Origin: Halosolutus gelatinilyticus
GTDB taxonomy: Archaea; Halobacteriota; Halobacteria; Halobacteriales; Natrialbaceae
Assembly: GCF_023028105.1 (NCBI RefSeq)
Contig: NZ_CP095491.1
Span: forward strand, 2,976,001-3,040,000
Reading direction: 5' to 3'
Length of the DNA stretch: 64,000 nucleotides
Below the pieces are notes generated by a model, which worked only from the letters and a program-made list of their open reading frames with translations, was not told the DNA's origin and made no database searches. This document shows positions 13,364 to 55,230 of this stretch, piece after piece (the stretch's first letter is position 1; every line of letters begins with the position of its first letter). Position numbers and translations under genes: made by a program.

Positions 13364-13421
13364 ATCCTCTAGTTGTCTATTCCGGGGAAAAACGCCGGGC
13401 TGCGAAGCCGTCTTATGTATG

Positions 13422-13731: not shown

Positions 13732-14409
13732 TCATCCGGCCGTCGTCATTTCGGGAGCCGTCACCGTCGCGTAACAGTTCCCGCTCGAAATCTCCCACTC
13801 GACGACAGCGAGATCGCTCGCCTCTAGGTCGCCCTCGAACTCCGCGGGCGAGTAGATGTGGTAGAACCGATCGACCGTCTCGCCGCCGGGGAGCGTCCAC
13901 TCGATCGTCGTGTCGAACCCCTCGGTCTCGTCGAACCGATCGTGGGCGGTCGACCACGCGCTGACGAGCGCCCGGCCGCCGGGCGCGAGGACGCGGGCGA
14001 GTTCGTCGAGGCTCGCTCGGCGCGCGTCGGCGGTCGGCAGGTGGTGGAGCGTCGCCACGTAGACCGCGACGTCGATCGACCCGTCGGCGATCGGAAGTGC
14101 GGCGGCGTCGCCCTGGCAGAGCGCGACGTCGAATTCGCGGTCGGCGGCCCGACCGCGGCCGGTTTCGAGGAGGCCGCGGCTGACGTCGAGGCCGACGACC
14201 CGATCGAGGCCGGCCGCGGCGAGCAACTCCGCGTGCCGGCAGTTACCGCAGCCGAGATCGAGGCCGGTGGCGTCGAGATCGGAATCGTCGGGGGCGTCGA
14301 TCGCCTCCGCGACGAACGCCTCGACCTCGGGCCAGGCGTACTCGCGAGTCGACGCGAAGTGCGTCGCGATCCGATCGTACGTGTCGCGGACGGCGGCCCG
14401 ACGATCCAT
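13732..14409 (-). CDS. Class I SAM-dependent methyltransferase, Trm9-like
   Basis: A 225-aa Rossmann methyltransferase. Motif I is LDLGCGNCRHAELLAAAG, motif II VVGLDVSRGLLETGR, motif III/post-I CQGDAAALPIADGSIDVAVY, then LHHLPTADARRASLDELARVL. The N-terminal VRDTYDRIATHFASTREYAW and the motif I variant match the Trm9/ABH8 tRNA wobble-uridine methyltransferase group, which in archaea and eukaryotes is activated by Trm112; a Trm112 gene is at 27808. Assignment to tRNA is inference. ATG 14409 starts the conserved part. Confidence 0.8.
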   Translation of the reverse strand: MDRRAAVRDTYDRIATHFASTREYAWPEVEAFVAEAIDAPDDSDLDATGLDLGCGNCRHAELLAAAGLDRVVGLDVSRGLLETGRGRAADREFDVALCQGDAAALPIADGSIDVAVYVATLHHLPTADARRASLDELARVLAPGGRALVSAWSTAHDRFDETEGFDTTIEWTLPGGETVDRFYHIYSPAEFEGDLEASDLAVVEWEISSGNCYATVTAPEMTTAG

Positions 14410-19656: not shown

Positions 19657-20037
19657 TCAACGACGGAGGGATGCGACGAGGTCGTCTGCCGAACCGGTGT
19701 TCCGGTGGACGTCCAACAGTTCGAGAAGGGGCCTCAGCTCGTCGAATCGGGGCCCTTCCGTGACGACGGTCTCCGTTCGATCCCACCTGATGAACCCGTA
19801 GTCGACCAGTTTGGGAAGATGAACGTAGTGGAGACGAAGGCGGTCTTCGTTTACACCAGCGATCGTTTGGGAACTGGACAGAAATCTGCGGACGAATTCC
19901 TCGTTGGCCGCGACGATTTTCCGGGAGATGGGGGATAGCTCCGGGACGCGTTGGGGATCGCGGGCGGATAACCTGACCAATAACTGGCGTCGGTCCCTGT
20001 CCGCCAGCGCGTCGAATATCTCGTCGTTGTCGATCAT
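19657..20037 (-). CDS. DUF7344 winged-helix regulator (paralogue 1)
   Basis: A 126-aa protein with an ArsR-like winged helix: IFDALADRDRRQLLVRLSAR, then a recognition region NEDRLRLHYVHLPKLVDYGF and the wing IRWDRTETVVTEGPRF. The C-terminus is a short helix with RPLLELLDVHRN. A second paralogue is at 21533 and a third, more distant one at 48602. A 21-nt motif about 70 nt upstream is shared with the gene at 21533. It likely acts as a transcription regulator; its signal is unknown. Confidence 0.82.
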   Translation of the reverse strand: MIDNDEIFDALADRDRRQLLVRLSARDPQRVPELSPISRKIVAANEEFVRRFLSSSQTIAGVNEDRLRLHYVHLPKLVDYGFIRWDRTETVVTEGPRFDELRPLLELLDVHRNTGSADDLVASLRR

Positions 20038-20106
20038 TCACGGTCCCTCCTGCCTGGATGACGGGTTCGACACCATTAAAAATGGAATATTTTGACGGGG
20101 AACGGT

Positions 20107-20127
20107 TGTTTTGATCAACCGAGTAAC
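20107..20127 (-). promoter_or_regulatory. Shared upstream motif of DUF7344 gene (site 1)
   Basis: On the minus strand this reads GTTACTCGGTTGATCAAAAC plus A. It differs at two positions from the site at 21905-21925, and both start exactly 71 nt before the ATG of a DUF7344 gene. The core TTGATCAA is palindromic. It lies upstream of the TATA-like CCATTTTTAATGG, so it is more likely an activator or autoregulator site than part of the basal promoter. Confidence 0.55.
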
Positions 20128-20328
20128 GTCCGGCGGAACCCCGAGATCGGTCGGTGCTACGCTCGACAGATCGTGTGCTCGCGACGATTGTGCGGTAGCC
20201 GCGATGCTCGACGCGACCGTCACCGGCGAGGGACGTCGCGATTTCCGTTTCCGCCGACGAGTAACAGGTTCGAGCCAACGGACATGTTGCGGATCACGAC
20301 CGACCGAACTCGACCCTATCTCCCGAAG

Positions 20329-21147
20329 TTACGTTGCCGGGTCTTTGGAGGGGACTAATCCCGACGCGATCAATCGGCGGAGGAGGACCACTACGCCGTT
20401 TTCGAGCCCCGTGGCGTAGATCGCGTGTTCTTGGGCACTGTTCTCCTCGGCGTCCGGGTAGTACGACCCGATCAGAAGCGTCTCACGGTCGATGAGGAGG
20501 ATGTGACTGATCGCGACTTCGTGATCGGCCGCCGGGCCGATGAGCCAGTCTAACCCCGTTTCGAACACCCGGACGTTCGGGAGTTCCGCCCCTAATCGAG
20601 TCGTGATCGGTTCCGTTCGACCGCCGAGGATGATCGACAGGTCTCGCTCCACCGCGTCGTGCAATTGTTCGAACAGCGGGTCCCTCAGGAGCGATTCGTC
20701 TACGATGAGGAATGCGATTTCCGAGTCTGCCTTGTCGATGAGATCGAGCATCCGCGAGTCGATCGCGTCCCGACCCGACAGCGACCACACTTCTCGTACG
20801 TGATCGTCGGCCGTCTCGGTGTCGTGATGTTCGACCGCTTCGAGGTGCGTCTTGAGCGTCTCGATTCGCCTGCTGTACTTTTGCTGGAGGGTACGGGTAG
20901 CCTCCTCGATGCTGACGGCGCGATACTGCTGGGGACTCGAGTGCTGGACTTCGACCAGTCCCTGCGATTCCAGCACGCGGATGGCGTCGTAGACCCGCGT
21001 TCGGGGGACCTCCGAAATCTCGTGAATCTCTTTGGCCGTCCCGCTCGGGAGTTGCGTCAGCGCCAGAAAACAGCGCGCTTCGTACTGCTGCAGCCCCAGC
21101 TCTTGCAGCAAGCTTACCGCCTCGTCGGTGATGTCGTCTTGTGTCAT
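20329..21147 (-). CDS. TrmB-family transcriptional regulator
   Basis: A 272-aa protein. The N-terminal winged helix (LLQELGLQQYEARCFLALTQ, GTAKEIHEISEVPRTRVYDAI) is the standard TrmB DNA-binding domain. A coiled-coil linker follows (RTLQQKYSRRIETLKTHLE), and then a C-terminal sensor domain with SEIAFLIVDESLLRD and SHILLIDRETLLIGSYYP, which resembles the PLD-like effector fold of TrmB proteins. The sugar-binding C-terminal extension of classical TrmB is absent, so the ligand is unclear. It lies between the two DUF7344 genes. Confidence 0.88.
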   Translation of the reverse strand: MTQDDITDEAVSLLQELGLQQYEARCFLALTQLPSGTAKEIHEISEVPRTRVYDAIRVLESQGLVEVQHSSPQQYRAVSIEEATRTLQQKYSRRIETLKTHLEAVEHHDTETADDHVREVWSLSGRDAIDSRMLDLIDKADSEIAFLIVDESLLRDPLFEQLHDAVERDLSIILGGRTEPITTRLGAELPNVRVFETGLDWLIGPAADHEVAISHILLIDRETLLIGSYYPDAEENSAQEHAIYATGLENGVVVLLRRLIASGLVPSKDPAT

Positions 21148-21532
21148 GGCCCAACCACTCGTTCGCTGATTCGAACAGGGACAGTTCGGTCCGAAGGCGG
21201 AAAAGGGTTCATGCATGGATCCGCCGAAAACGGGCAGCCCGTTATGGTCAGAGACGAAGAAATGGATTTTCACTCGAATAATCACACAAACTACTTGAGT
21301 AGGGGACTCGGTATGTTCCATTGGTGTGCCTCTCTTGGCCCAACCACGATGGGGCACGCCGCTTACTCTACAGACGATGAGATTAGCCGATTCCGCTCGG
21401 CTGATATCGGGTTCGAGACCAGCAACGCTTCGCCGGTGATCGGAGTTTCCCGGAGGTAGCCGGCTCCTGCTCGTGACGTCACTCCTGCCGTCCGTCACTC
21501 GATATTGTTGAAAATTGGCCGTTCGATCGCCG
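21148..21532. other. Intergenic stretch upstream of the TrmB gene
   Basis: About 385 nt. It must contain the TrmB promoter (minus strand) and the 3' end of the DUF7344 paralogue 2 transcript. Open frames here are short and have no coding bias. Nothing else was recognised. Confidence 0.4.
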
Positions 21533-21835
21533 TCACACCCATCCGGCCGGAAGCGTTTCTTGACGGTCGTTCAATAGCTTGAGCGCGGGCCGGATTTCGT
21601 CGAAGCTGGACCCTTTCGTTATGACGTGTTCTTCTTGATTCCATTCGATAAAGCCGTAATCGTCCAACTTGGGCAGGTGAGCGTGGTAAATGCGGGTCAG
21701 TTCATCGTCCCTGTCACTCCCTTCTCGAGGGACGCCAGGCGGTTCCGCGACCTGTCGTGGATTGTGATCCAACAACTCGACTAGCAACCGGCGGCGGGTG
21801 TCATTTGCTAACGCGTCAAACATTTTATCAATCAT
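21533..21835 (-). CDS. DUF7344 winged-helix regulator (paralogue 2)
   Basis: A 100-aa relative of the gene at 19657: MFDALANDTRRRLLVELLDH, then RIYHAHLPKLDDYGFIEWNQ and the wing EEHVITKGSSF. The helical segment between helix 2 and the recognition helix is about 20 residues shorter than in paralogue 1. The ATG at 21835 is preceded by an AT-rich leader (AAAATTTATACG on the minus strand, a good TATA box) and by the shared motif at 21905. It is probably a transcription regulator. Confidence 0.82.
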   Translation of the reverse strand: MIDKMFDALANDTRRRLLVELLDHNPRQVAEPPGVPREGSDRDDELTRIYHAHLPKLDDYGFIEWNQEEHVITKGSSFDEIRPALKLLNDRQETLPAGWV

Positions 21836-21904
21836 GCAACTATTCCTATGGGTAGAAGTACACTTCCAATCTTATCAAACGTATAAATTTTCACGATATT
21901 TCTA

Positions 21905-21925
21905 TGTTTTGATTAACCGAGTGAC
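21905..21925 (-). promoter_or_regulatory. Shared upstream motif of DUF7344 gene (site 2)
   Basis: On the minus strand this reads GTCACTCGGTTAATCAAAAC plus A, matching 19 of 21 positions of the site at 20107-20127 at the same distance (71 nt) from the start codon. The intervening leaders are not alike, so the motif has been kept selectively. Confidence 0.55.
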
Positions 21926-22040
21926 CGCCGTGTCATAGTTCGTACCGGTAGCGACCGATATTCTCCCACGGTGCCGGCCGAAGAATCGACTCTCAACGGT
22001 TCCGGAACGGTCAGTTTGATGTCCCGGTACCCCCGAGTCC

Positions 22041-31284: not shown

Positions 31285-33459
31285 CTACTTCGTTACTACG
31301 ACGTTGTCGAGGTAACTCGTGTCGTCACCCGCCCGATACTCGCCGCGGATGCGGAGGACTTCCAAGTTCGCGAGGACGTCGCGGAACCGTTCTTCCGTCG
31401 CCAGCGGCTCCCCGCTCGTCAGATCGATCCAGATCGCGTCGGCCGTGAGCGGGACCTCGTACGAGGTCCACTCCTCACCCGGATTGCCCTGGTCGCCGCG
31501 GAACTCGTAGACGAGCTTCCGATCGCCGCTCGCGAGCAGCACGTCGCCGCCTTCGACGGGCTCGGCGTCGAACTGCCGATCGGTCCGGGCTTGGCGAAGA
31601 TCGAACGATAACTGCCCGCCGTAGAACGCCTCGCGGTCGCCGAGGAACTTAAACGGCGCCTGATAGTACCAGGCGATGCCGCCCTGATCCTCGTCGTCGC
31701 TGATGTGTCCGCCGGGATTGCCGCCGCTGGCGCGGTAGGTCGGACGGTTGCTCCCGCCGTTCTGCGAGATGAGCCAGCCCTCGGCGTCGTCGTCGAACGT
31801 GCTCTCGACGCGGTCGCGTTGTTCGGTCCCGGGATCGATATCCGACGTGTGGATCGTCTTCGAGAACTGTTCCGTCCCTTCCTCGTCGTAGATGTCGATC
31901 GTCAGCGTCTCGCCCGACTCGTCGACCTCGACGGTGCCGAAGTTGGTGTACTCGCCCTTGGCGAAGAACTCCGTCGGATTTAGCGCCGGGTAGAGATCGT
32001 CCGGCGCGCCGGCGGGGGCTCCGAGCGGACCGGCGGTCGCCTCGAAGAACTCGAACGCGCCGTCGTCGTTCGGATCGAACGCGCCGACGACGGACTTGTG
32101 AACGTCGCCCGCGACGACGACCAGATTCGAGATCTCCGCCGTCTGAACGTGGTTGACGATCTCGAGGAGCTCCGCCTCGTATCCCGTTCGATCCGCCTCG
32201 GTCGCCCACGAGTCGGACGGGTATCCCAGCGGAGCCGGCGAGGCCAGCAGCTTCCACGTCGCGTCGGAGTCGGCGAGCGACTCCTTCAGCCACTCGAGTT
32301 GGTCCGCCCCGAGCAGCGTCTTCGAGCCGAGGCCGACGTTCGGGTCGCGGTACTGGCGCGTGTCGATGACGAACAGTTCGACGTGTTTCCCCCATCGGAA
32401 CGAGTCGTAGAAGCGGTTGGACTCGCCGGGATCGGCGGTCTCGTCGCGGTCGAGCGGCCAGTACTCGCGGAACGCTCGTCGCCCCTCGGGCATCAGCGGC
32501 TCGATCGGCCCCGCGAAGTTGTTGATGACCTCGTGGTCGTCCCAGACGGTGTAGACCGAAGTCGACTTGAGCAGTTCCTGCAGGTAGGTCCGCTCCGCGA
32601 TCTCGGCCGGCGGATCGCGCATCTCCTTGTACTTGGCGCGGTAGATTTCGAGCGCGTCGTCGATCGGCGTGTTCTCGGTGATCTTGCCGGCCGGGGTCCG
32701 CGCGTCGGCGTAGATCGTATCACCGTGATAGAGGAAGAAGTCCGGTTCGCGCTCCGCGATCGTCCGGAGGCCCGGGAACGGCGGTTCGACGGGATCGTCC
32801 CCGTAACCCCACGTATCGCCGCTCCAGGCGAACGTAACGCTCGCCTCGTCGTCGGGCGCCGGCGCCGTGACGAAGGTACCGCTTTCGACCGCGTCCGGAA
32901 CGATTTCGTCACTCGGTTTGCCGTTCCCGCGCCCGGCGGGCTCCGAATCCGATCGCGGTCCGCGCCCCTCGTCGGACTCCGATTCGTTCTCGGCTCTTCC
33001 GTTTCCGCGTCGACCGCCTACCGGTCGGTACCGCAGGTCCGTGGCCGTGGCCCAGACGTGATACCGGTAGCGAGTCCCCGGTGCGAGTTTTTCGAGCCGA
33101 ACGTGACCGGCGTAGTCGGTTTCGGCGTCGACGTTCGTCCGGTCGTAGCCGACGCGATCGAACGATTCGTCGGGGCTGTACGCGACGTGGATCGTCGCGT
33201 CGTCGGCGGTTCGAGTCCATACGACCGCCGTCGTGTCGGTGACGTCGCCCGCGGCGACGCCGTGGGTCAGCGAGACGAAGTCGTCGGGATCGGTCGCCGA
33301 TTCCGACGCGTTCGAATTCGAATCCGCGTCCGAGTTCGATTGGGCGGCTGCGGTCCCCATCAGCCCCGCCGAGGTCGCAGCCAGTCCGATCGTCTGTAGA
33401 AACGTTCGTCGATTGTTCGTCGCCCGTTCGCCCAGTCTATCGCGAGGCGCGTTCGTCAT
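31285..33459 (-). CDS. PhoD-type alkaline phosphatase fused to a laminin-B-like domain
   Basis: A 724-aa exported metallophosphatase. Residues 1-40 are a Tat signal (RRTFLQTIGLAATSAG). A PhoD N-terminal domain (VSLTHGVAAGDVTDTTAVVW) follows, then a disordered insert rich in G/R/E/S. The catalytic domain has FFLYHGDTIYAD, VWDDHEVINNFAG, ELFVIDTRQYRDP and VVVAGDVHKSVVGAF, the metal ligands of PhoD. From about residue 545 a second domain begins (DDDAEGWLISQNGGSNRPTY) and ends TSYLDNVVVTK, which matches the laminin B sugar-binding-like fold. It likely works at the cell surface in phosphate scavenging. Confidence 0.9.
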   Translation of the reverse strand: MTNAPRDRLGERATNNRRTFLQTIGLAATSAGLMGTAAAQSNSDADSNSNASESATDPDDFVSLTHGVAAGDVTDTTAVVWTRTADDATIHVAYSPDESFDRVGYDRTNVDAETDYAGHVRLEKLAPGTRYRYHVWATATDLRYRPVGGRRGNGRAENESESDEGRGPRSDSEPAGRGNGKPSDEIVPDAVESGTFVTAPAPDDEASVTFAWSGDTWGYGDDPVEPPFPGLRTIAEREPDFFLYHGDTIYADARTPAGKITENTPIDDALEIYRAKYKEMRDPPAEIAERTYLQELLKSTSVYTVWDDHEVINNFAGPIEPLMPEGRRAFREYWPLDRDETADPGESNRFYDSFRWGKHVELFVIDTRQYRDPNVGLGSKTLLGADQLEWLKESLADSDATWKLLASPAPLGYPSDSWATEADRTGYEAELLEIVNHVQTAEISNLVVVAGDVHKSVVGAFDPNDDGAFEFFEATAGPLGAPAGAPDDLYPALNPTEFFAKGEYTNFGTVEVDESGETLTIDIYDEEGTEQFSKTIHTSDIDPGTEQRDRVESTFDDDAEGWLISQNGGSNRPTYRASGGNPGGHISDDEDQGGIAWYYQAPFKFLGDREAFYGGQLSFDLRQARTDRQFDAEPVEGGDVLLASGDRKLVYEFRGDQGNPGEEWTSYEVPLTADAIWIDLTSGEPLATEERFRDVLANLEVLRIRGEYRAGDDTSYLDNVVVTK

Positions 33460-33477
33460 GATCGCAGTAAATATCTG

Positions 33478-33540
33478 GTGAGATGAATACAATAATTTAT
33501 ATATTTTTAGTAAATTACATAATATAGGACATAATTTCGT
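33478..33540 (-). promoter_or_regulatory. AT-rich promoter region of the PhoD gene
   Basis: About 60 nt of almost pure A/T in a GC-rich genome, containing TATATAAATT (minus strand) roughly 40-45 nt ahead of the ATG. This implies a short leader and a strong promoter. Sites for phosphate control may lie here, but no Pho-box-like repeat was clearly seen. Confidence 0.5.
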
Positions 33541-33677
33541 CTTTTCGTCGCCGTATCGATACGTAGTAGCGTGTACTCCCACACACGCAGACGAACCGTT
33601 GCCGTGACGTTCAGTGGCGAACCCGTTCGAGCAGCGAGAGCGCTACGCCTATTTACGCCCGGCCCGAACCCGCGGGC

Positions 33678-35055: not shown

Positions 35056-35934
35056 TCAGTTCTCCGAATCCGGAAGCGCCGCATCCACCGCCCTGCGCTT
35101 TTCCCGCCACCTCGTGACGCGCGCCGACAGCGACCAGCGACCGACGAGGTGGCCGGCGAGGTCGACGCTGACGTAGCCGAGCCCGATCCCCGCGATCACG
35201 TCGATCGCCCAGTGAATGCCCAGATACATCGTCGAGAGCGAGACGCAGATCGCGAGGACGACCGCGACGGCAGCCCATTTCGGATAGACCCGCCGCGTCT
35301 TCCACGCGAGCAAGGCGACGGTCGACGCGAGCGAGGCGTGCAGGGACGGAAAGACGTTGGTGTTGCGGTTGACCTGCCGGGTGAGGTGCTGGTACTCGGG
35401 GTAGGTGTCGTACAGCAGGGCCACGACTTCGGGCATCATGTTTCGCGGCCCGTAGGCGATGACGAGCACGTACAGCACCAGTCCGATCGCGTAGTTGAGC
35501 GTGTACGCCGTCAGAAGCTCCCGGAGCGGCCGGGTGTTCGAGAGCGCGAAGTACGCCACTACCGGGAAGACGAGCAGGAAGACGTAGCCGTAGATGTAGG
35601 TGAACGAGAAGAAGGCCGTCACTTCCGGGGTCGCGTACGACTGCAGCCAGAGGACGAACTCGCCTTCGAGCTCGTAGATGGGCTCGGTCAGGTTCCAGCC
35701 GAACATCCACGAGAGGTCGGGGACGATCTGCCTGGCGACGCTGTTGAACAGCAACACGCTCGCGAGGACGACGGTGATCGGGACGACCTCTCGAACGCGT
35801 GTCTTCCACTCCCGTCGGGTATCTCGGAGCCGATACCGTCCGACGAACGCGGCGATCCCGACGAGGAGCATGACGGTGACGACCGCGACCAGCCGAGCGA
35901 GCACTTCCTCAAGCATCACCGACTCTTCGAGCAT
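35056..35934 (-). CDS. PAP2/AUR1-like membrane lipid phosphatase (module 1)
   Basis: A 292-aa membrane protein with six or more helices. The PAP2_3 (AUR1-like) motifs are IAYGPRNMMPEV, NVFPSLHASLASTVAL (motif C2, with catalytic His) and TMYLGIHWAIDVIAGIGLGY (C3, His and Asp). Family members remove or transfer phosphate on lipid head groups at the outer membrane face. The ATG overlaps the stop of the lipoprotein gene upstream (TAATG), so translation is coupled. The paralogue is at 37822, and both pair with the same kind of lipoprotein. Confidence 0.88.
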   Translation of the reverse strand: MLEESVMLEEVLARLVAVVTVMLLVGIAAFVGRYRLRDTRREWKTRVREVVPITVVLASVLLFNSVARQIVPDLSWMFGWNLTEPIYELEGEFVLWLQSYATPEVTAFFSFTYIYGYVFLLVFPVVAYFALSNTRPLRELLTAYTLNYAIGLVLYVLVIAYGPRNMMPEVVALLYDTYPEYQHLTRQVNRNTNVFPSLHASLASTVALLAWKTRRVYPKWAAVAVVLAICVSLSTMYLGIHWAIDVIAGIGLGYVSVDLAGHLVGRWSLSARVTRWREKRRAVDAALPDSEN

Positions 35935-37700
35935 TACTGTCTCACCCGGAGCGTCCCGTCGGCGGCGTATCTGAACCCGGCCTCCTCGAACGCCGATCGC
36001 GCCGCCTCGACGTCGAGGGCGCCGGTCCCGTCGGTTCCGAGAAACGGCGTTTCGGGGTCTTCACCGTTCCACTCGAGGCTGCCGGGCGTCCACTCCTCGG
36101 GAACGGGCGTCGCGATCGGTCGGGCGTGGCCGTGGAACACCTCCTCGACGAGCCACGCCTTGTCGAGCAGCCGCGCGACGACGCGCCTGAACCGGGGGTT
36201 GGAGAACGGCGCTTTCCGCGCGTTGAAGCCGAGGTGGTAGAACGTCCACGACGGCGACTCGAGCAGTCGCGTGTCGTCCGTCTCCTCGACGCCGTCGAGG
36301 ACGTACGTTTCCAGCGCGTCGCTGGTGATGTCCGCTTCGTTCGTGTTGACGAGTTCGATCGCGGACGTGCTCCGCGGATCGATCTGGAAGCGGACCGTCT
36401 CCACGGTCGGTTCGGGAAGTTCGACGCCCGAGCGGCGCGTGAAGTGGTCGTCGAACCGTTCGAGGGTGACGTGTTCGCGCTCGCTTCGGCTCGAAAACCG
36501 GAAGGGGCCGCTCCCGATCGGCGGCCAGTTGTCCGTGACGACCGCCTCCGTCGTCCCCTGGGCGACGCGGACGCCGGGCAGGTCCGCGGCCGCCGATCGC
36601 GGCTTCCAGACGTGTTCCGGCAGGATCGGGACGGTCAGCGCGCGCTCGGCGACGGGTCGGTTCGCGTCGACGGGCAGTTCGACGCGGCCCTCGTCGTCGT
36701 CGAACTCGATCGCGTCCGCGTCGACGGCCGACGTTCGCCCGCGGTACCGGGGCGATGGCGACGGGCTCACCCCCTCGCCGAGTGTGGTGTCCGCGAGGAA
36801 CCGGTAGGTGAACGCGACGTCCGAGGCGTCGAGGGCGTCGTCGTCGTGAAACCGAAGGTCATCTCGGAGCGTCACCGCGAGCGTGCCGTCGTTCCAGTCC
36901 CACGACTCGGCCGCCCAGGCCGTCAGTTCGCCGTCGATTTCGATCGCGAGCGGGTCGTACAGCAGATCGACGAACGCCTCCAAATCGCGGTATTCGGCCA
37001 TGATCGGGTTGGCGTTCTCCGAGGGTCGGGCGTCCGTGTGGGCCGCTCGGATCCCGTCGACGCCGTCGCTCGGATCGAGGCCGAGATAGCCGGGGCCGGT
37101 CGCGGGGTGGCGATCGCCCCAGCCATCGAACCGATCGGTCCGGACCAGCCGGTGCTCTTCGGGGACGCAGATCGGCACGAACGGCTGTTCGAGGGCGATC
37201 GCCTCGAGCGCGTCGGCCACCGCTTCGTCCCGATCGGCCGGATCGACCCGCCGCTGTTCCTCGAGCAACTCGTCCACGTGCAGGTTCGTGAAGCCGAAGG
37301 GGTTCTGCCAGCCGGATTCGTCGGCGTAGAGCGAGTGCAACGCCTCGTAAAGGAAGTCCGGATCGGTTCCGCCGGGGTGTTGTCCCACGTAGACGTCGAA
37401 GTCGTAGTTGAACAGGATCGCCCGGTTGACCTCCTCGTTCGACCGCATCTCGATCGAGACGTCGGCGCCGACGGCGTCGAAGACGGCGGCGATCTCCCGC
37501 GCGAGCTGGATGCTCTCCCGATCGCCGTCGGCGGGCCGCGTCGTGATCGTGAGCGAGAGCTGCTCGATGTCGTCCCGGTTGACGATACTGCGAACCTGCC
37601 GAACGCAGCCGCTGGTGGCGACCGTCAACCCGCCCGCCGCCGCGAGCATCGCCCGCCGACTGTACCCGGCCTCGGAACCGCCCGTCCGTCTCTCGGCCAT
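35934..37700 (-). CDS. Tat lipoprotein, family-5 solute-binding protein (module 1)
   Basis: A 588-aa exported protein. It has a Tat motif SRRAMLAAAGG and a lipobox TSGC, so it is lipid-anchored outside. The body is SBP_bac_5-like: PDFLYEALHSLYADESGWQN, FHDDDALDASDVAFTYRFLA, VPILPEHVWKP, PPIGSGPFRFSSRSEREHVT and the end NPRFRRVVARLLDKAWLVEE. Family-5 proteins usually bind oligopeptides or nickel complexes for an ABC importer, but no permease or ATPase is near. The TATA with palindrome at 37731-37745 gives a start close to the ATG. The ligand is unknown. Confidence 0.88.
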   Translation of the reverse strand: MAERRTGGSEAGYSRRAMLAAAGGLTVATSGCVRQVRSIVNRDDIEQLSLTITTRPADGDRESIQLAREIAAVFDAVGADVSIEMRSNEEVNRAILFNYDFDVYVGQHPGGTDPDFLYEALHSLYADESGWQNPFGFTNLHVDELLEEQRRVDPADRDEAVADALEAIALEQPFVPICVPEEHRLVRTDRFDGWGDRHPATGPGYLGLDPSDGVDGIRAAHTDARPSENANPIMAEYRDLEAFVDLLYDPLAIEIDGELTAWAAESWDWNDGTLAVTLRDDLRFHDDDALDASDVAFTYRFLADTTLGEGVSPSPSPRYRGRTSAVDADAIEFDDDEGRVELPVDANRPVAERALTVPILPEHVWKPRSAAADLPGVRVAQGTTEAVVTDNWPPIGSGPFRFSSRSEREHVTLERFDDHFTRRSGVELPEPTVETVRFQIDPRSTSAIELVNTNEADITSDALETYVLDGVEETDDTRLLESPSWTFYHLGFNARKAPFSNPRFRRVVARLLDKAWLVEEVFHGHARPIATPVPEEWTPGSLEWNGEDPETPFLGTDGTGALDVEAARSAFEEAGFRYAADGTLRVRQ

Positions 37701-37730
37701 CTGTGTCGTGCCTGCACTTCGATACCGGCG

Positions 37731-37745
37731 ATATAACAGTATTGT
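37731..37745 (-). promoter_or_regulatory. TATA box with overlapping palindrome, lipoprotein gene (module 1)
   Basis: The minus strand reads ACAATACTGTTATAT. The half palindrome ACAGTATTGT (37736-37745) touches the TATA box. A near-identical arrangement occurs at 40493-40507, suggesting one regulator for both modules. Confidence 0.6.
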
Positions 37746-37821
37746 GTTGCGGCGTCCGGGCGGGCCGCCCGAAGTTGACTGAACGCGGCCTCGGATCTGC
37801 GTTCGGCCGGACGTCTCGGCG

Positions 37822-38673
37822 CTACCGATCCAGCTGTCGGTCGACCGTCGTTCGGACGGACGCGACCGCGTCACGGAGGTCCCGCAGCGACCACCGATCG
37901 ACCAGTCGATCCGACGCGGCGACGGAGACGAGCGCGAGCGCGATTCCGGCGGCGACGTCGATCCCCCAGTGGATGCCGAGGTACATCGTCGAGACGACGA
38001 TGCTGAGGGCGAGCCCGACGGCGACGGGAAGCCACGACGGGTACTCGTCGCGGGTCGCGTAGGCGAAGCAGGCGACCGTCATCGACAGCGAGGTGTGCAG
38101 CGAGGGAAAGACGTTCCGGCGGTCGTTGACCTCCTGGGTGAGGTACTGGAACTGTGGGCTGTTGTCGTACAGCATCGTCTCGGACACCAGCTCGGGCATG
38201 TAGTTCCGGGGGCCGTACGCGACGATGAGGACGTAGAGCACGACCCCGATCGCGTAGTTGAGCGAGTAGGCCGTCAGCAGTCGCCGGAACGGTCGCGTGT
38301 TCGATAGCGCGAAGTACGCGATGACGGGAAAGATGAGCAGGAAGGTGTAGCCGTACACGTAGGCGACGGTGAAGTAGGTGTTCATCTCCGAGGATGCGAT
38401 CCGCTGGAAGAGCAGGACGAACTCCCCTTCGATCTCGTAGAAATTCACGTGGATCCCGATATCGCGGGAGATCGACGGGCCGGCCCGTCTCATGATCCGA
38501 TTGCACACGAGGACGATGGACAGGATGACGATGACCGGTGCACTCGTCCGGAGTCGGGCTCTCCACTCCGTGTGAGTCCGCTTGAGGCGCTCGAGGCCGA
38601 CGAAGATCGCGATCGCGAGCGGTAGCGCTACCCCGACGACGGCGACGACTCGCGCCAGTACTTCCGCGAGCAT
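37822..38673 (-). CDS. PAP2/AUR1-like membrane lipid phosphatase (module 2)
   Basis: A 283-aa paralogue of the protein at 35056. It keeps VAYGPRNYMPELV, RRNVFPSLHTSLSMTVACF and STMYLGIHWGIDVAAGIALA, with the same helix order. Between the first motif and C2 it has a slightly different loop (DNSPQFQYLTQEVND). Start ATG 38673 lies 5 nt after the stop of the lipoprotein gene. Similarity to module 1 spans the whole protein, so a duplication of the pair is likely. Confidence 0.88.
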   Translation of the reverse strand: MLAEVLARVVAVVGVALPLAIAIFVGLERLKRTHTEWRARLRTSAPVIVILSIVLVCNRIMRRAGPSISRDIGIHVNFYEIEGEFVLLFQRIASSEMNTYFTVAYVYGYTFLLIFPVIAYFALSNTRPFRRLLTAYSLNYAIGVVLYVLIVAYGPRNYMPELVSETMLYDNSPQFQYLTQEVNDRRNVFPSLHTSLSMTVACFAYATRDEYPSWLPVAVGLALSIVVSTMYLGIHWGIDVAAGIALALVSVAASDRLVDRWSLRDLRDAVASVRTTVDRQLDR

Positions 38674-38678
38674 TGGTA

Positions 38679-40463
38679 TCAGTGCCGGCTCAGGAGCCGG
38701 CCCCGGTCGTCGTACCTGAAGCCTGCCCCCTCGAACGTTCGTCTCGCTCGTTCGACGTCGAGTTCGCCGTCGGTGCCGAAAAACGGCGTCACGGGGTCCT
38801 GCCCGTTCCACGCGAGCTCCTCGGGCGTCCACTCGTCGGAGACGGGCGTCGCCAGGGGCCGCGCGTGGTCGTCGAAGACGTTCTCGACGAGCGACGCCTT
38901 GTCGAGCAGTTGCGCGACCGCCCGGCGGAAGTGCGAGTTGCTGAACGGCGACGTTCGCGTATTGAACCCGAGGAGGTAGAACGTCTGCGACGGCGACTCC
39001 AGCCGCGTCAAGTCGGACCCGTCCGGGATCTCCACGATCGCGTGGGCGCCGAGGCGAGAGGCGGTGACGTCGGCATCGCCGCTATCGATGCGCTTGATCG
39101 AGGACTTGCTGCCCGGGTCCACGGTGAACCGGAGTTCCTCGACGGGCGCTTCCGGCTGGTCGACGTTCTCCCGGCGCGTAAAGTGATCCTCGAAGCGCAC
39201 GAGCGTCAGGTGTTCGCGCTCGGCGTGGTCCGCGTACCGGTACGGGCCGCTGCCGGTCGGGGGAAGGTTGTCCATCGTGACGAGCCCCCACTCGCCTTGG
39301 GGTGCCGAGAAGTCCCCGCCGTCGGACCGATCGAGGACCTGCGCTTCCCACCGGTGTTTCGGGAGGATCGGCACCGCCAACGCGCGGGTCCCGGCCTCGG
39401 TTCCGGTCGAGACGCCGATCGTGAGTCGGTGGTCGCCCTCGATCTTGACCCGCTCGATGGCCGCCGCGTGACTGCGGTACCGCGGCGCGGGCGACGGGGC
39501 GTTGGCTCGGCCGAGAGCCGTGTCTCCGAGGAATCGGTAGGTGAAGGCGACGTCCCGCGCGGTGACGGGCTCGCCGTCGTGGAAGACACAGCCCTCGCGG
39601 AGCGCGATCGTCGCCGTCGCCAGTTCGTTCTCGGTCGCGTTCTCGTCCGGCTCGCGCCACTCCCAGGACTCGGCGAGCCAGGGCTCGTAGGATCCGTCGC
39701 GGACGGTCACGAGCGAGTCGTACAGCAGGCCGATCGTCGGTCCCTGATCGCGATAGGGCGCCGAGAGGGGGTTCACGTTCCGCGACGGCCGGGAGTCGGT
39801 GAGCAGCGCGTGGAGCCGATCGACGTTGGCCGTCGGCTTCAGGCCAAGGTAGCCGTGGCGCGTCCCGAGGTGGCCGCCGTCCCAGCCCTCGAATCGATCC
39901 GTTCTGGCGATCCGGTACGCGTCCGGAACGCAGATCGGATCGAAGGGCTTCTCCTGGGCCAGCGCGTTCAGGACTTCGCCGACGTTTCGTCGGCGCGCCT
40001 CGCCGTCGGTTCGCCGCTGTTCTTCGAGCAGTGCGTCGAAGGCGATGCTGGTGAACCCGAAGGGGTTCTGCCAGCCGGCTTCGCTCGCGTACGTCGAGTG
40101 GAGGGCCTCGTAGAGGAAGTCCGGATCATCACTGGTGGGATGCGTGCCGACGTAGCAGTCGAAGTCGTGCTCGATCAATACCGTCTCCAGCACTTCGGAC
40201 CGCGATCGCATGTCGATGGAGACGTCTACGCCCACCGCCTCGAGGTTCTCCTCGAGATGGCGGGCGAGCTGGACGTTCTCCCTGTCTCCGTCCGCGGGGA
40301 CCGTCAGGATGGAGATCGAAAGTTGCTCGGTTCCCTCGTCGTCGACGACGCTCTGGACGCGATCGATACAGCCACTGGTCGAGAGGGTGAGTCCGGCCGC
40401 GCCTGCGGCGAGGACCGACCGTCTGCTGACGCCGTCAACGGGAGTGGTCGAATCTCGATTCAT
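38679..40463 (-). CDS. Tat lipoprotein, family-5 solute-binding protein (module 2)
   Basis: A 594-aa paralogue of the protein at 35934. Tat motif SRRSVLAAGAAGL and lipobox STSGC, then LSISILTVPADGDRENVQLA, DPDFLYEALHSTYASEAGWQ, FHDGEPVTARDVAFTYRFLG, PPTGSGPYRYADHAEREHLT and SNSHFRRAVAQLLDKASLVE. It ends GFRYDDRGRLLSRH. No transporter partners are visible. Its promoter carries the perfect palindrome ACAATATTGT next to TATATA, and transcription probably begins within a few nt of the ATG. Confidence 0.88.
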   Translation of the reverse strand: MNRDSTTPVDGVSRRSVLAAGAAGLTLSTSGCIDRVQSVVDDEGTEQLSISILTVPADGDRENVQLARHLEENLEAVGVDVSIDMRSRSEVLETVLIEHDFDCYVGTHPTSDDPDFLYEALHSTYASEAGWQNPFGFTSIAFDALLEEQRRTDGEARRRNVGEVLNALAQEKPFDPICVPDAYRIARTDRFEGWDGGHLGTRHGYLGLKPTANVDRLHALLTDSRPSRNVNPLSAPYRDQGPTIGLLYDSLVTVRDGSYEPWLAESWEWREPDENATENELATATIALREGCVFHDGEPVTARDVAFTYRFLGDTALGRANAPSPAPRYRSHAAAIERVKIEGDHRLTIGVSTGTEAGTRALAVPILPKHRWEAQVLDRSDGGDFSAPQGEWGLVTMDNLPPTGSGPYRYADHAEREHLTLVRFEDHFTRRENVDQPEAPVEELRFTVDPGSKSSIKRIDSGDADVTASRLGAHAIVEIPDGSDLTRLESPSQTFYLLGFNTRTSPFSNSHFRRAVAQLLDKASLVENVFDDHARPLATPVSDEWTPEELAWNGQDPVTPFFGTDGELDVERARRTFEGAGFRYDDRGRLLSRH

Positions 40464-40492
40464 TCAAGTCTCTTTCAGAGTTCTCCGTGGGT

Positions 40493-40507
40493 ATATAACA
40501 ATATTGT
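40493..40507 (-). promoter_or_regulatory. TATA box with perfect palindrome, lipoprotein gene (module 2)
   Basis: The minus strand reads ACAATATTGTTATATA. The 10-bp palindrome ACAATATTGT (40498-40507) directly abuts the TATA box, 30-37 nt upstream of the ATG at 40463. The module 1 promoter has the same order with one change in the palindrome. Confidence 0.65.
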
Positions 40508-40592
40508 GTACTCCGTTTGGTTATATGGAGGGTACTAAATAGAAGTGCCCCCCTGATCGACGAGCGGCCGCGAAATCGGCCGTGAGGCGGCC

Positions 40593-41678
40593 TTAGTCGG
40601 CGGGATCGGTTCGCGCGACCCGCTGGTAGCAGTCGAGGAGTCGCCGTCCGACGGTCCCGAGGTCGTGTTCGGCGGCGGTTTCCCGCGCACGCTTCCCGAG
40701 TCGCCGACGGAGGGCCGGATCGGCGGCGAGTCGATCGATGGCCTCGCGGAACTCCCGTTCGGTCGCGCACTTGAGACAGTCCACGCCGTCGGTGTAGAAC
40801 TCGTCGAAGACGGGGATGTCCCGGAGCACGACCGGTTTCCCGCAGGCCATCGCCTCGAGGACCGCGATCCCCTGGTTCTCCTCGTGCGTGGGGAAACAGA
40901 AGACGTCGCCCGCGCCGAATGCGATCCGCTTGTCCTCGACCCAGCCCGTAAACGTCACGTTGTCGGGCGGATCGGCCGTCCACCGTCTGACGGTTCGGCT
41001 CGCCAGCGGACCGCGATCGTACGGGCCGAACCAAACGAACTCGTACGGCGTCCGGCGCGCGAGCCGGCAGAACGTCGACAGGCCCTTCCGCTCGAAGACG
41101 TTGCCGACGGCGAAGACGACGAGGCCGTCGAGGTCGAACCGATCGCGACCGGGCTCGCGAAACCGTTCGTACCCCGCGAGCGACGCCCGGTCGACCCCGT
41201 TCGTGATCGGGCTAATCGGCGCGTCGACCGGGTACGATTCGAGGCGGGTTTTCGTCCGCTCGCTCGGACAGCAGACCAGATCGGCCTGCGAGTAGAACCG
41301 GCGCAGGTACCGGCCGAGCGGACCCGAGAGCGCGTTCGACCCCCGGAAACTGTCCCGGAAGTCCTCGCGGGTGACGTGGGCGTGCAACACGAGCGGCCGC
41401 CCAGTTCGCCTCGCGTGGCGGGCGATCGCGAGCGACCCGGGACCGATGGCGTGACAGTGTGCGACGTCGTAGTCGACGATCGGCGACTCGCCGCGGGTCA
41501 GTCGCGCCGGGAGCGTTCTCGCGGAGCCGTTCCAGGGATCGGTGACGACCGCGAGGTCGCCCTCGCGATCGGACTCCTCGGCGATCCGCGAGAGGGCGGT
41601 CCGCTGCTGGGCCGCGGCCGTCGAGATGCCGCTTCGCTCGAGAACCGACGGCAGTTCGAGATAGTTGAGCACGCGCAC
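40593..41678 (-). CDS. Family-4 glycosyltransferase (GT-B)
   Basis: A 361-aa enzyme. The N-terminal domain starts MRVLNYLELPSVLERSGIST and includes AHCHAIGPGSLAIARHARRT. The C-terminal domain has VVFAVGNVFERKGLSTFCRL, FTGWVEDKRIAFGAGDVFCF and EENQGIAVLEAMACGKPVVL, the E-x7-E nucleotide-sugar motif of GT4 enzymes. The start GTG at 41678 matches the conserved N-terminus. It is transcribed in the same direction as the two lipoprotein/PAP2 modules, about 130 nt upstream of them. The acceptor is unknown; a lipid is plausible from context. Confidence 0.85.
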   Translation of the reverse strand: MRVLNYLELPSVLERSGISTAAAQQRTALSRIAEESDREGDLAVVTDPWNGSARTLPARLTRGESPIVDYDVAHCHAIGPGSLAIARHARRTGRPLVLHAHVTREDFRDSFRGSNALSGPLGRYLRRFYSQADLVCCPSERTKTRLESYPVDAPISPITNGVDRASLAGYERFREPGRDRFDLDGLVVFAVGNVFERKGLSTFCRLARRTPYEFVWFGPYDRGPLASRTVRRWTADPPDNVTFTGWVEDKRIAFGAGDVFCFPTHEENQGIAVLEAMACGKPVVLRDIPVFDEFYTDGVDCLKCATEREFREAIDRLAADPALRRRLGKRARETAAEHDLGTVGRRLLDCYQRVARTDPAD

Positions 41679-51179: not shown

Positions 51180-52037
51180 TTAGTTCGCGACCGGAACGCC
51201 GAGCGCGGCCCGACCGACGACGAACGCGAGCGTCGCGACGAACATTCCGTATTTGAGATACGACTGGCCAGCCGTCGGATCGTCGAAACTCTCGTAGGCC
51301 GCGTACAGCATGATCGCGTCCGCCGGCAGCACGACCGCGAGGTACGCCTCCTCGAAGTAGCCGAGCAGGTACGGCAGCGGACTGGCCAGCACCGCGAGCA
51401 CGAGCAATCCCGCCGCGACGACCAGCGCCCGCCGATCGCCAATCGCGATCGGCAGCGTGTTTAGCCCCTCCTCGCGATCGCCCGCGAGGTCCTCGACGTC
51501 CTTGATGATCTCCCGGGTCAGCGTCGCGACCGCCGCCAGGAGGAACAGCACCGCCGCCGGCACGCCGAGGGCGCCGACCGCGGCCGCCCCGAACAGGAAC
51601 GTACTCCCCACGAGGGACGCGACGAGCGCGTTTCCGACCCCCGGAAGTCCCTTGAACAGTTCGGTGTAGGCGATCAGCGCGACGAGGTTCACGGCCGCGA
51701 TCGCGACCGCCACCTTCGGCAGGGTGAGCGCGACCGCGACGGCCGCCGCGAAGAGGACGCCGCTGAACGCCAGCGCTCCTCGCGGGCTCACCGCCCCGCG
51801 CGGAATCGCCCGCTGCGGCTGGTTAATCCGATCGATCTCGCGATCGAAGTAGTCGTTGATCGCGTTTCCGGCGCCGACGGCCAACCCGGTCGCGGCCACG
51901 GCCGCCGCGACCGCGATCGGCTGGTCCGCCGCGCCGCCGGCGACGAAGGCGCCGACGAACGTCAGCACGCTCGCCGCGATCGCGTTTACCGGCCGTGTCA
52001 GCTCGAGCAACCCGCGGGCCGTCTCCGCCGCTGTCAT
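51180..52037 (-). CDS. Digeranylgeranylglyceryl phosphate synthase (UbiA family)
   Basis: A 285-aa membrane prenyltransferase that adds the second geranylgeranyl chain to GGGP, forming the archaeal diether lipid core. The first Asp-rich motif is NAINDYFDREIDRINQPQRA and the second TREIIKDVEDLAGDREEGLN. Eight or nine hydrophobic helices surround them. The match with archaeal DGGGP synthase is close in order and length. It complements mvaD at 4318 in the lipid pathway. Confidence 0.93.
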   Translation of the reverse strand: MTAAETARGLLELTRPVNAIAASVLTFVGAFVAGGAADQPIAVAAAVAATGLAVGAGNAINDYFDREIDRINQPQRAIPRGAVSPRGALAFSGVLFAAAVAVALTLPKVAVAIAAVNLVALIAYTELFKGLPGVGNALVASLVGSTFLFGAAAVGALGVPAAVLFLLAAVATLTREIIKDVEDLAGDREEGLNTLPIAIGDRRALVVAAGLLVLAVLASPLPYLLGYFEEAYLAVVLPADAIMLYAAYESFDDPTAGQSYLKYGMFVATLAFVVGRAALGVPVAN

Positions 52038-52130
52038 ACCGGAAGGTGCTCAGTCGGAGCGGTTAAACGGTACGATCCGCGGACAATACCTGTACAGACG
52101 GGATCGAACGAGGAGGGGCGATCGGCGGCC

Positions 52131-52313
52131 CTACTGCCAGTCCTCGAGATCGCAAAGCCCCTCGGCTTCGATCGAGAGCCACTGCGTGACCCGATCGTCG
52201 CCGCGGGCGTCGACGGGGACGGCCGTCCACGTGTCCTCGTCGTCGGTGAGTAGCTCGAGCGGCGCTGCTACGGTCCGACTGTCCTCGGGGCGGGAGGCCT
52301 CGTGTACCGTCAT
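52131..52313 (-). CDS. DUF7511 family small protein
   Basis: A 60-aa acidic protein, MTVHEASRPEDSRTVAAPLE, containing TDDEDTWTAVPVDARGDDRV and ending DLEDWQ. The pattern (W-A/V-P-x-D, then T.WLSI) is that of haloarchaeal DUF7511 proteins. It has a single Cys, no membrane segment and no known function. Confidence 0.72.
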   Translation of the reverse strand: MTVHEASRPEDSRTVAAPLELLTDDEDTWTAVPVDARGDDRVTQWLSIEAEGLCDLEDWQ

Positions 52314-52465
52314 GGCACGTGTTCAAGTCGTCTCGCCAGCCCCATGACCCCCGCAGGCGGTTTTCAGCCAGTGAGAAGTGGTGCGGGCCGATCGGTGTGT
52401 CGAAACCTGTCGAAACCGGTTCGAATCGAGTGACTTATACGGGACCGACAGGAAAGAAACGGTGC

Positions 52466-52540
52466 GGGCGCTTAGCTCAGTCTGGACAGAGTGCTTGGCT
52501 TCGGACCAAGTTGTCGCGGGTTCAAATCCTGCAGCGCCCA
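52466..52540 (+). tRNA. tRNA-Arg (TCG)
   Basis: A 75-nt tRNA. Acceptor GGGCGCT/AGCGCCC with discriminator A, D arm GCTC/GAGT, anticodon stem CTTGG/CCAAG around CTTCGGA (anticodon TCG, reading CGA and other CGN codons), and T arm GCGGGTTCAAATCCTGC. No CCA encoded. The region to the right is an AT-richer patch, but no copy of the tRNA 3' end was found there. Confidence 0.96.
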
Positions 52541-52750
52541 TCCCGACACTTCTCGGCGTGAATTGACCGGACAGCGGCCGATTTCGATGCCTGAGCGCCG
52601 GCCAGCACCGTTTGATTTCAACACGTGACGGGTCGGTCGTCGCTCCCGTAAGGCAAAAGGTTCGCTACAACTTCGGCTGCCCACCAACTCCGCAAAGTAA
52701 CTAATTTGGCTTTGTTGAAACTCTTGTTCGGTGATAGTCTATCGAGGTAA

Positions 52751-53113
52751 TGCTGAATACAGAGCACAAATCTTGCACTGGATAGTGGAGGCTTTTAACG
52801 AAACTATCGACAGTAAATGTAGACACTACGGCTACTACGTTGGCGTATCAGGCCTTGGCTCCTGCTACGCCGCCTCCGATTGCCGCGCCGCAGTGACCAC
52901 ACGCAATCAGGTAGAATCGTTTCGACGATGCGAAAAATCCAATAGAAGCGTCCATTTCTATGAACTCAACATCCTCTTTCTCCGAGAGCGTTACTTCACA
53001 ATCAGAGCAGTGTACCATGCACGTTCTATTTTTGATAAGAAATAATAAGTTTTGTCCACAACCCATCCGTTGGAAGTTCACGGGCATGCTGACTATATCC
53101 TCTGTATTCAGCA
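52751..53113. mobile_element. 363-bp unit bounded by 14-bp inverted repeats
   Basis: TGCTGAATACAGAG at 52751-52764 is repeated as its exact complement CTCTGTATTCAGCA at 53100-53113. The unit encloses the small zinc-ribbon gene and nothing else. No transposase is present and no target duplication was obvious at the edges. It is AT-richer than the genome. It could be a non-autonomous insertion-sequence derivative. Confidence 0.45.
52848..53018 (-). CDS. Small zinc-ribbon protein (56 aa)
   Basis: A 56-aa protein, MVHCSDCEVTLSEKEDVEFI, with a second pair in LIACGHCGAAIGGGVAGAKA. The CxxC...CxxC layout with a Gly-rich end is common among haloarchaeal small zinc-finger proteins, which are mostly uncharacterised. 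The ATG at 53018 begins the conserved part; upstream is AT-rich promoter-like sequence (AAAACTTATTATTTC on the minus strand). It lies within the inverted-repeat unit. Confidence 0.6.
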   Translation of the reverse strand: MVHCSDCEVTLSEKEDVEFIEMDASIGFFASSKRFYLIACGHCGAAIGGGVAGAKA

Positions 53114-53802
53114 CGTTGCTCCTAACAGCCACCAGTGAAATCAAACACCGTTTCGTTACCTGCTTACCCTATACAGAACAGATCTCTACTGCATTTTTGC
53201 GCTAGTAAAATGCGATCGGTGACGCGTTGCCCGACAACCGATCGTCGAAAAGGCAGTGAGTTCGCCCGTCACCCCCCTGTGCCTCTGACCACCCCTTATC
53301 GGGTCGTCATCCGACGGTTTCCGATGACTGCCCGGAAAGCGTATACACTGGCGATCTACACAGACACTCAGGCGGCCCTATGAATTTATGAGGGAGGGGA
53401 GAACCAGTACGGCCGCTCATGAGTGGAATCAACGGCTTCTACGCCGATAGCCGCAAAGTGACGCAAGGTGATGGGGCGAAACTGGTCGTCATCCCTGCAC
53501 CGATCGTCGCACTACGATGGTACAGGCGCGATCCACGATTGTGGGATGACGATTGCTCACGAGAACGAGGCTAGTGGGACCGAGTGAACGGACGAGTGAT
53601 GATCGTCATTTGTGTCAAGTACCTGTCTAATCCGCCCAGGATTGAGCCCAAACAATCAAATAGAATACATTATCGAGATGTCGGTTAGTATCGTTGTTGT
53701 TCGGTTTTTCGGCGAGTATTCCGTTTCTGACGAACCATCACAATCATTCGTATCGATTCAACGATAATCCTTATACACGCCGAGTTAATTCGCTGAGACA
53801 GG
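53114..53802. other. AT-richer intergenic stretch with a possible 51-aa ORF
   Basis: About 690 nt. The only candidate is a forward frame from ATG 53419 to TAG 53574 (MSGINGFYADSRKVTQGDGA); its codon use is weakly genomic and no domain is recognised. The rest shows no gene. A TATA box (TTATACAC, about 53771) close to the right end serves the transporter gene. Confidence 0.4.
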
Positions 53803-55230
53803 ATGGCACGAGAGAGTTGGGCAAGCCGCGCCGGATTCATTCTAGCCGCGGTCGGAAGCGCGATCGGATTGGGGAACATTTGGCGGTTTCCATGGATGAC
53901 CGCGGAGAACGGCGGAAGCGCCTTTCTGCTGTTGTATCTGCTCATCGTCCTCGTCGTCGGAGTGCCGGGGCTGCTGGCCGCGTTCGTGATTGGTCGGCGG
54001 TCGAATCGAAACCCGGTCGGGGCGTTCAAATCGCTCGCCGGTTCGCGCGCATGGACAGCGTTAGGCGCGCTCTGTGTCGTCACCTCGATCATGCTGATGT
54101 CGTTCTACAGTGTCGTCGGTGGCTGGATCCTTCGGTACTTTCTCGAGAGCGCAACGGGCGCCTATTTTGCGGCCCCTGAGACCCACTTCGCGGCGATCAG
54201 CTACGGTGCCGAAGCGTTCGGCTACCAGCTCGCTGTCCTCGCGGCCACAGCCCTGATCGTCACCGCGGGGATCAGACGCGGCATCGAGGCGACGACGAAG
54301 GTGATGATGCCCAGCATCGTCGTGTTGCTCATCGCGCTCGCGATCTGGGCGGCCCAACAGCCTGGTGCCGCGCAGGGGTATGAATTCTACCTCGGATTTG
54401 ACGGCGCCTACCTCGCGGAGAACTTTTTGTCGGTGCTGGGATCGGCCGCCGGCCAGGCCTTGTTCACCCTCTCAATTGGTGGTGGAACGATGATCACTTA
54501 CGCCTCCTACGTCGACGATGATCGTTCGCTGCCCCTCGACGCCTCCGCCATCGCTGTGCTCAATCTCGCCGTCGGCATCCTGGCCGGACTCGTGGTGTTC
54601 CCGCTGCTGTTCTCGTTCGCGCCGGGCCCGACTGAGGGCGGTCCCGGCGCTTTGTTCGTCGGTATCGCTGGCGCGTTCACGAACCTGCCCGGTGGACGAC
54701 TCCTCGGCGCGGTCTTCTTCTTCGTCGTTCTCCTCGCAGCCCTGACGAGCCTGATCAGCATGCTCGAGATCCCGGTCTCGCTCTTGGTCGACGAGTTCGA
54801 CCTCGAGCGGTCGACGGCGACCTGGGGGCTGTTCGTGTTGGTCGCGCTCGCCGGTGGCGTGAATGCGTTCAGCCCCGCGGTGTTCACGTTGTTCGCGGAC
54901 CACCTCGTCGATCTATTCTTGGTGCTCGGCCTGACCGGGTTCATGGTGTACACGGCCTGGGTGCTCGGTCCGGCCGCGATCGATGAATTCCTCAACGGCG
55001 CGGGACCGATCTCGCGTCCGTTAGCGATCCCGTGGCGGTACGCGATCGGGACCCTCTTCCCGACGTTCCTGCTCTTTACGTTCTACGCCGACGTCACGGT
55101 CCTTATCGGGTTCTCGGCGGGAACGGGGCTGTTGCTGGTCGTGACGCTGCTAACGCTGGTGCCGTTTGTGTTGGTGGCCCGCCGTTCCGTTTCCAAGAAT
55201 CGACCTCAATCGACCGAGAACATGGACTGA
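53803..55230 (+). CDS. Neurotransmitter:sodium symporter family (NSS) transporter
   Basis: A 475-aa membrane protein with twelve helices. Helix 1 carries the sodium/substrate site GSAIGLGNIWRFPWM followed by ENGGSAFLLLYLLIVLVVGV. Further motifs are GQALFTLSIGGGTMITYASY (helix 6) and ALTSLISMLEIPVSLLVDEF (helix 8), as in SNF/NSS transporters of amino acids. Codon use is less strictly GC-ending than in neighbouring genes, which hints at transfer. A TATA box lies about 30 nt before the ATG, so the mRNA is leaderless. Confidence 0.92.
   Translation: MARESWASRAGFILAAVGSAIGLGNIWRFPWMTAENGGSAFLLLYLLIVLVVGVPGLLAAFVIGRRSNRNPVGAFKSLAGSRAWTALGALCVVTSIMLMSFYSVVGGWILRYFLESATGAYFAAPETHFAAISYGAEAFGYQLAVLAATALIVTAGIRRGIEATTKVMMPSIVVLLIALAIWAAQQPGAAQGYEFYLGFDGAYLAENFLSVLGSAAGQALFTLSIGGGTMITYASYVDDDRSLPLDASAIAVLNLAVGILAGLVVFPLLFSFAPGPTEGGPGALFVGIAGAFTNLPGGRLLGAVFFFVVLLAALTSLISMLEIPVSLLVDEFDLERSTATWGLFVLVALAGGVNAFSPAVFTLFADHLVDLFLVLGLTGFMVYTAWVLGPAAIDEFLNGAGPISRPLAIPWRYAIGTLFPTFLLFTFYADVTVLIGFSAGTGLLLVVTLLTLVPFVLVARRSVSKNRPQSTENMD

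Follow-up and report, generated by a model that had tools for sequence, protein, structure and literature searches.

In mycobacteria, two enzymes that help to build arabinogalactan and lipoarabinomannan, AftA and AftB, co-immunoprecipitate with LpqZ and FecB, lipoproteins that resemble solute-binding proteins (SBPs) but have no transporter (PMC12802301). A further mycobacterial lipoprotein, LpqW, steers glycolipid synthesis (PMC3229680). Here, these and other described systems are compared with a locus of the haloarchaeon Halosolutus gelatinilyticus, located at positions 35056-40463 of a 64-kb window of contig NZ_CP095491.1 (the window being the whole stretch of DNA analysed, to which all plain coordinates refer). 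The locus consists of two tandem units, each made up of the gene for a solute-binding family 5 lipoprotein with a twin-arginine translocation (Tat) signal and the gene for a PAP2_3 membrane enzyme. The two genes are inherited together and the enzyme stands in the place of an importer. This suggests the recruitment of a nutrient-binding protein to help in building or remodelling the cell envelope.

The haloarchaeal SBPs are like LpqZ with AftA, FecB with AftB, and LpqW in that all would be importer-less lipoproteins of SBP fold acting together with envelope glycolipid or glycan enzymes, and LpqW (2grv) is among the fold matches of one of the SBPs studied here, SBP2 (Z 20.2 over 326 residues). 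The mycobacterial partners are glycosyltransferases, whereas the haloarchaeal SBP shares its operon with its partner, an Aur1-like PAP2 enzyme; LpqZ and FecB, moreover, resemble other SBP families (PMC12802301), and the haloarchaeal SBP is circularly permuted. The likeness would therefore lie in the way of working and not in membership. On the side of the enzyme, the structure of the fungal inositol phosphorylceramide (IPC) synthase Aur1 includes a second subunit, Kei1 (title of 9ivc). Aur1 shares with the haloarchaeal PAP2 family the motif FPSLH...STMYL..H...D and is its best fold match. To our knowledge, Kei1 is not an SBP.

Family-5 SBPs of the Dpp and Opp type, working with DppBCDF, have the same fold and lipoprotein form, and some haloarchaeal ones share the permuted order as well. 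The clade of the present SBPs, hereafter the core SBPs, differs from them in having no importer permease genes nearby and in being paired with PAP2. Treponema MglB-2 is likewise circularly permuted and tethered and has kept ligand binding, but it belongs to another family, the glucose type I SBPs, and was assigned to an importer (PMC4990184). Neither a PAP2/SBP system of haloarchaea nor a circularly permuted family-5 SBP was found described in the literature searched, most subscription journals lying outside its coverage.

Two tandem units and their recurrence in haloarchaea

All genes of the locus are carried on the minus strand and are transcribed in the order GT4 glycosyltransferase, SBP2, PAP2-b, SBP1 and PAP2-a. 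SBP2 (38679..40463, 594 aa) is separated by 5 nt from PAP2-b (37822..38673, 283 aa), whereas the stop codon of SBP1 (35934..37700, 588 aa) overlaps the start codon of PAP2-a (35056..35934, 292 aa) in the sequence TAATG (35936-35932). The SBPs match SBP_bac_5 (PF00496) with 150.4 bits (SBP1) and 145.8 bits (SBP2), above the gathering cut-off of 32.4, and in each there is an RR motif as well as a lipobox (SRRAMLA...TSGC, SRRSVLA...TSGC). The polytopic enzymes match PAP2_3 (PF14378) with 69.5 bits (PAP2-a) and 69.8 bits (PAP2-b), above the cut-off of 27. The paralogues are 52% (SBP1 and SBP2, 592 columns) and 56% (PAP2-a and PAP2-b, 249 columns) identical. Coordinates, Pfam matches and identities thus bear out the earlier note on this DNA, which had described two tandem lipoprotein and PAP2 units, one translationally coupled by TAATG and the other with a 5-nt gap. 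A third, more distant SBP and PAP2 pair is found elsewhere in the genome (4.76 Mb, 4 contigs), at C1:3449025-3451696.

A scan of named genomes yielded 50 loci with a core SBP, all of them haloarchaeal. A PAP2 open reading frame followed the core SBP directly in 49; in the exception, L063, the contig ends inside the SBP match, and some of the other loci also lie on short contigs (e.g. L060, L064). Occurrence in this genome only, which the earlier note had named as refuting the system idea, does not hold. In a class sample of 69 genomes, searched with profiles (core SBP > 480 bits, PAP2 > 240 bits), PAP2 was directly downstream on the same strand for 54 of 61 core SBPs, a count in which the core SBP was reported as two pieces in four genomes. 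Six of the seven SBPs lacking a downstream PAP2 were extra copies beside a complete pair. Forty-one genomes contained SBP as well as PAP2 and the remaining 28 contained neither (Fisher p 6e-20, kinship ignored), and in the four genera with both states (g14, g18, g19 and g26) the two families vary together. A start codon overlapping the SBP stop codon is available in about 34 of 58 PAP2 genes. Across 247 genomes sampled from the phylum, no match at E <= 1e-60 fell outside the same order.

The SBP and PAP2 genes are a genuine two-gene unit that is widely conserved and lacks an ABC (ATP-binding cassette) importer, and a chance pairing is excluded by the third pair in the same genome and the recurrence across haloarchaea. 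An interaction or a shared phenotype of the pair is not on record, as would be expected of neighbours of unrelated function that are kept together by chance or by shared promoter use; the perfect co-occurrence over the 69 genomes, the frequent stop/start overlap and the third pair make such an explanation highly improbable.

The circularly permuted SBPs and the gene that follows them

Although the SBPs belong to family 5, the parts of the fold do not follow one another as in canonical members, the C-terminal part standing first. When aligned with a canonical-order hidden Markov model (HMM), a profile built on three canonical SBPs encoded in this genome, residues 54-180 of SBP2 match HMM positions 381-505 (iE 1.2e-9) and residues 274-585 match positions 88-364 (iE 2.7e-26). 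SBP1 (row L120) and the third copy display the same swapped order, whereas canonical SBPs are colinear with the profile. In PDB searches, made both with the single sequence and with a profile, residues 40-190 match the C-terminal part of the canonical family-5 proteins, and the chain beyond about residue 230 matches their N-terminal half. For AppA (1xoc), profile positions 232-531 correspond to chain positions 38-311, and 42-187 to 355-497 (i-Evalue 1.7e-6). The AlphaFold2 model of SBP2 (mean predicted local distance difference test, pLDDT, 85.6) has an intact binding-protein fold, and a structure aligner that follows sequence order aligns only residues ~210-594, which it places on the N-terminal part of known SBP structures, as expected from circular permutation. 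The SBPs are circularly permuted family-5 proteins, a trait that the earlier note missed and that can serve as a marker for tracing this SBP family.

We also noticed that another SBP of this genome (L004 / L116, C1:2625711-2626892) seems by eye to be permuted at another site, since the start of its chain looks like the end of a canonical SBP; the profile match stops at 433 of 542.

No ABC permease or ATPase related to the Dpp systems of this genome was found in the 64-kb window, in agreement with the absence of importer genes beside the units claimed before. The count of permease absence that had been called for gave the same picture, as no Dpp permease homologue was present in the stretches around the SBP of any of the 50 core loci; ATPase-only matches near six of them probably belong to other transporters. 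Twelve SBPs matching the permuted profile at lower scores (90-210 bits) were inspected with their surroundings as an importer-type set. Dpp permease homologues followed the SBP in line in 11 of these 12 loci, ten of them with two ATPases, so the permease search works. The first gene after the importer-type SBP was DppB in ten loci and DppC in L107, and no Dpp permease homologue was seen at L104. Permuted family-5 SBPs were thus observed to head Dpp importer operons among L098-L109, and one of these, L107, is located in the genome studied here (C2:326000-336000).

In a phylogenetic tree, core and importer-linked SBPs formed separate groups with 100% support in the SH-like approximate likelihood ratio test (SH-aLRT), the importer-linked branches being long and the root assumed. 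Since the gene after the permuted SBP is a permease in the importer group and PAP2 in the core group, PAP2 occupies the permease position. The ancestral state, importer-linked or PAP2-linked, is a matter of inference; importer-linked relatives of the same permuted type still exist for comparison.

The core SBP might still feed a distant DppBCDF importer, with PAP2 only preparing the ligand outside, for instance by dephosphorylating a solute or a lipid head group. Several family-5 SBPs can use one permease, as described for DppA1-A5 of Pseudomonas (PMC4206461); in addition, the modelled fold is intact and the genome holds 18 SBP_bac_5 genes, several of which adjoin permease or ATPase genes. Yet PAP2 sits in the operon place of the permease, related SBPs keep an importer of their own, and the enzyme is membrane-embedded and Aur1-like and not a secreted phosphatase. 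We consider this explanation unlikely.

The PAP2 enzyme, protein X and the proposed role of the SBP

The best fold matches of the PAP2-b model (mean pLDDT 89.0) were to Aur1/IPC synthase (Z 17.9 over 211 residues and Z 16.7 over 217), and the next was LpxE (Z 16.0 over 164 residues). The active-site stretch reads FPSLH...STMYLGIHWxxD in the haloarchaeal PAP2 enzymes and AFPSLH...STMYLTHHYFVD in Aur1, whereas PgpB and YodM have S-R at the place of STMYL. An Aur1-type assignment thus has the best Z and the shared STMYL in its favour, but the sequence E-values are weak (0.01) and LpxE is within about 2 Z units. Residues H193, H235, D239 and R156 of PAP2-b are invariant in the aligned set, in SBP-linked and unlinked copies alike. 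Four other positions (L55, R62, Y109 and S224) set the SBP-linked enzymes apart from four unlinked paralogues, the unlinked sequences being too few for interpretation. A PHROGs search of the PAP2 proteins gave no match.

Loop 26-43 of the model contains six K/R against two D/E, and loop 150-191 three K/R against five D/E, so by the positive-inside rule the active site should be on the outer face of the membrane. With Aur1/IPC synthase as the closest fold and the active site predicted to face outward, a head-group phosphotransferase is as likely as a phosphatase, a choice that sequence alone does not decide. Of the lipid phosphatase of AUR1/PAP2 type that had been proposed for this locus, membership in the PAP2 family stands with the intact His-His-Asp site, while phosphatase activity is, given the Aur1/IPC synthase fold, one of two equally likely options.

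The enzyme might instead recycle a lipid carrier (dolichyl phosphate or diphosphate), the SBP being a sensor that matches PAP2 to glycan assembly or salt stress. The good LpxE fold match would fit such a role, as would weak sequence matches to the PgpB and undecaprenyl-diphosphatase models. STMYL, however, is found as in Aur1 and not as in PgpB and YodM, and 28 of the 69 haloarchaeal genomes lack the subfamily, a patchy distribution for an essential recycling step. Carrier recycling is therefore rather improbable.

When the neighbours at the 50 loci were compared, distant clades were found to share one family, here called X, a membrane protein about 430 aa long. Its gene immediately precedes that of the SBP in loci of Halorubrum/Halobellus and Natronomonas and is mostly located away from the pair in Natrialbaceae. 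Examples are located at L039:5645-6904, L043:5653-6933 and L019:14423-15745 (minus strand), with the motifs WPYT and DWFxLRHxV. X matched no family in Pfam and NCBIfam, and its matches in the PDB had E-values of 0.7 or worse. Sequences homologous to X occur in 40 of the 69 genomes. All 40 belong to the 41 that hold SBP and PAP2, and the other 28 have none; some matches are partial or weak (e.g. G011, G027), so the count refers to homologous sequence and not to intact genes. X probably belongs to the SBP-PAP2 system in most species. The earlier note missed this co-occurring protein, which is encoded elsewhere.

On balance we favour the reading that an orphan SBP was recruited as an accessory or ligand-sensing outside subunit of an Aur1-like lipid phosphatase or phosphotransferase, in a haloarchaeal envelope module. 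The active site would face the compartment of the lipoprotein, as the positive-inside reasoning on the model predicts. The SBP would bind a small ligand or a lipid head group, dock on the enzyme and thereby deliver the ligand or switch the enzyme on, and the enzyme would then act on an isoprenoid lipid, removing or transferring its phospho-head group. That the SBP serves the enzyme and not an importer had been suggested before; the permease position of PAP2 and the mycobacterial precedent (PMC12802301) support the suggestion, which holds by inference only. A more elaborate version is put forward tentatively, namely a three-part envelope machine made up of the permuted SBP, an Aur1-like enzyme and X; gated by the SBP, the enzyme would transfer phospho-head groups on the outer face from one archaeal lipid or glycolipid to another.

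Several observations weigh against the recruitment of the SBP as a subunit of the enzyme. An SBP need not be encoded near the permease that it serves, and several Dpp systems are present in this genome. Four more PAP2 paralogues in the genome lack an adjoining SBP, so that not every enzyme of the subfamily needs an SBP next to it; in one genome the two genes are both present and unlinked. In the Natrinema loci L016, L020, L021 and L025, SBP1 is kept after a complete SBP2-PAP2 pair and persists without a PAP2 of its own, the second PAP2 gene being missing. X was found neither by profile nor by single sequence in H. gelatinilyticus, the sole exception among the 41 genomes, an empty result that is weak evidence of absence. 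Finally, the correlation of SBP and PAP2 distances (r 0.90) is expected from shared ancestry alone and was not used as evidence of contact.

If true, the recruitment of the SBP by the PAP2 enzyme would provide an archaeal example of binding proteins taken over from importers to serve envelope enzymes. According to a review (PMC8305020), the way in which haloarchaea make their polar lipids is not fully worked out; the SBP-PAP2 pair and X are concrete candidates for its study.

Promoter elements and neighbouring genes

The sequence ACAATAYTGTTATAT precedes both SBP genes at 29-30 nt before the ATG. The putative promoter elements, both on the minus strand, are ACAATATTGTTATAT (40493..40507), 29 nt upstream of the SBP2 ATG, and ACAATACTGTTATAT (37731..37745), 30 nt upstream of the SBP1 ATG. 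Their 14-base core, RCAATAYTGTTATA, occurs in the whole genome only upstream of SBP1 and SBP2, and related elements are present at the same distance in most Natrialbaceae loci. The TTATAT part could serve as TATA box for a transcript without a leader. Judged from these sequences, each SBP-PAP2 unit seems to have its own promoter, which would set the units apart from the GT4 gene. The two units arose by tandem duplication in Natrialbaceae, and a copy of this element accompanies each.

The GT4 glycosyltransferase gene (40593..41678, minus strand) lies upstream and is probably outside the unit. Its product contains GT4 domains according to Pfam (Glycos_transf_1). It had been counted as part of the system, a candidacy that was rejected since a homologue adjoins the pair at only two of the 50 loci and each SBP has a promoter element of its own. 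The product scores 264.6 bits against the model of the IagA/BgsA glycolipid-anchor glycosyltransferase, below the cut-off of 460, and is possibly an archaeal glycolipid enzyme.

Elsewhere in the window, an open reading frame at 31285-33582 has a Tat-like start and resembles by eye a PhoD-type phosphatase. The G+C content, about 0.66 in the region, is lower at 12001-14000 (0.59), 20001-22000 (0.57) and 52001-54000 (0.55), which are possibly recent insertions.

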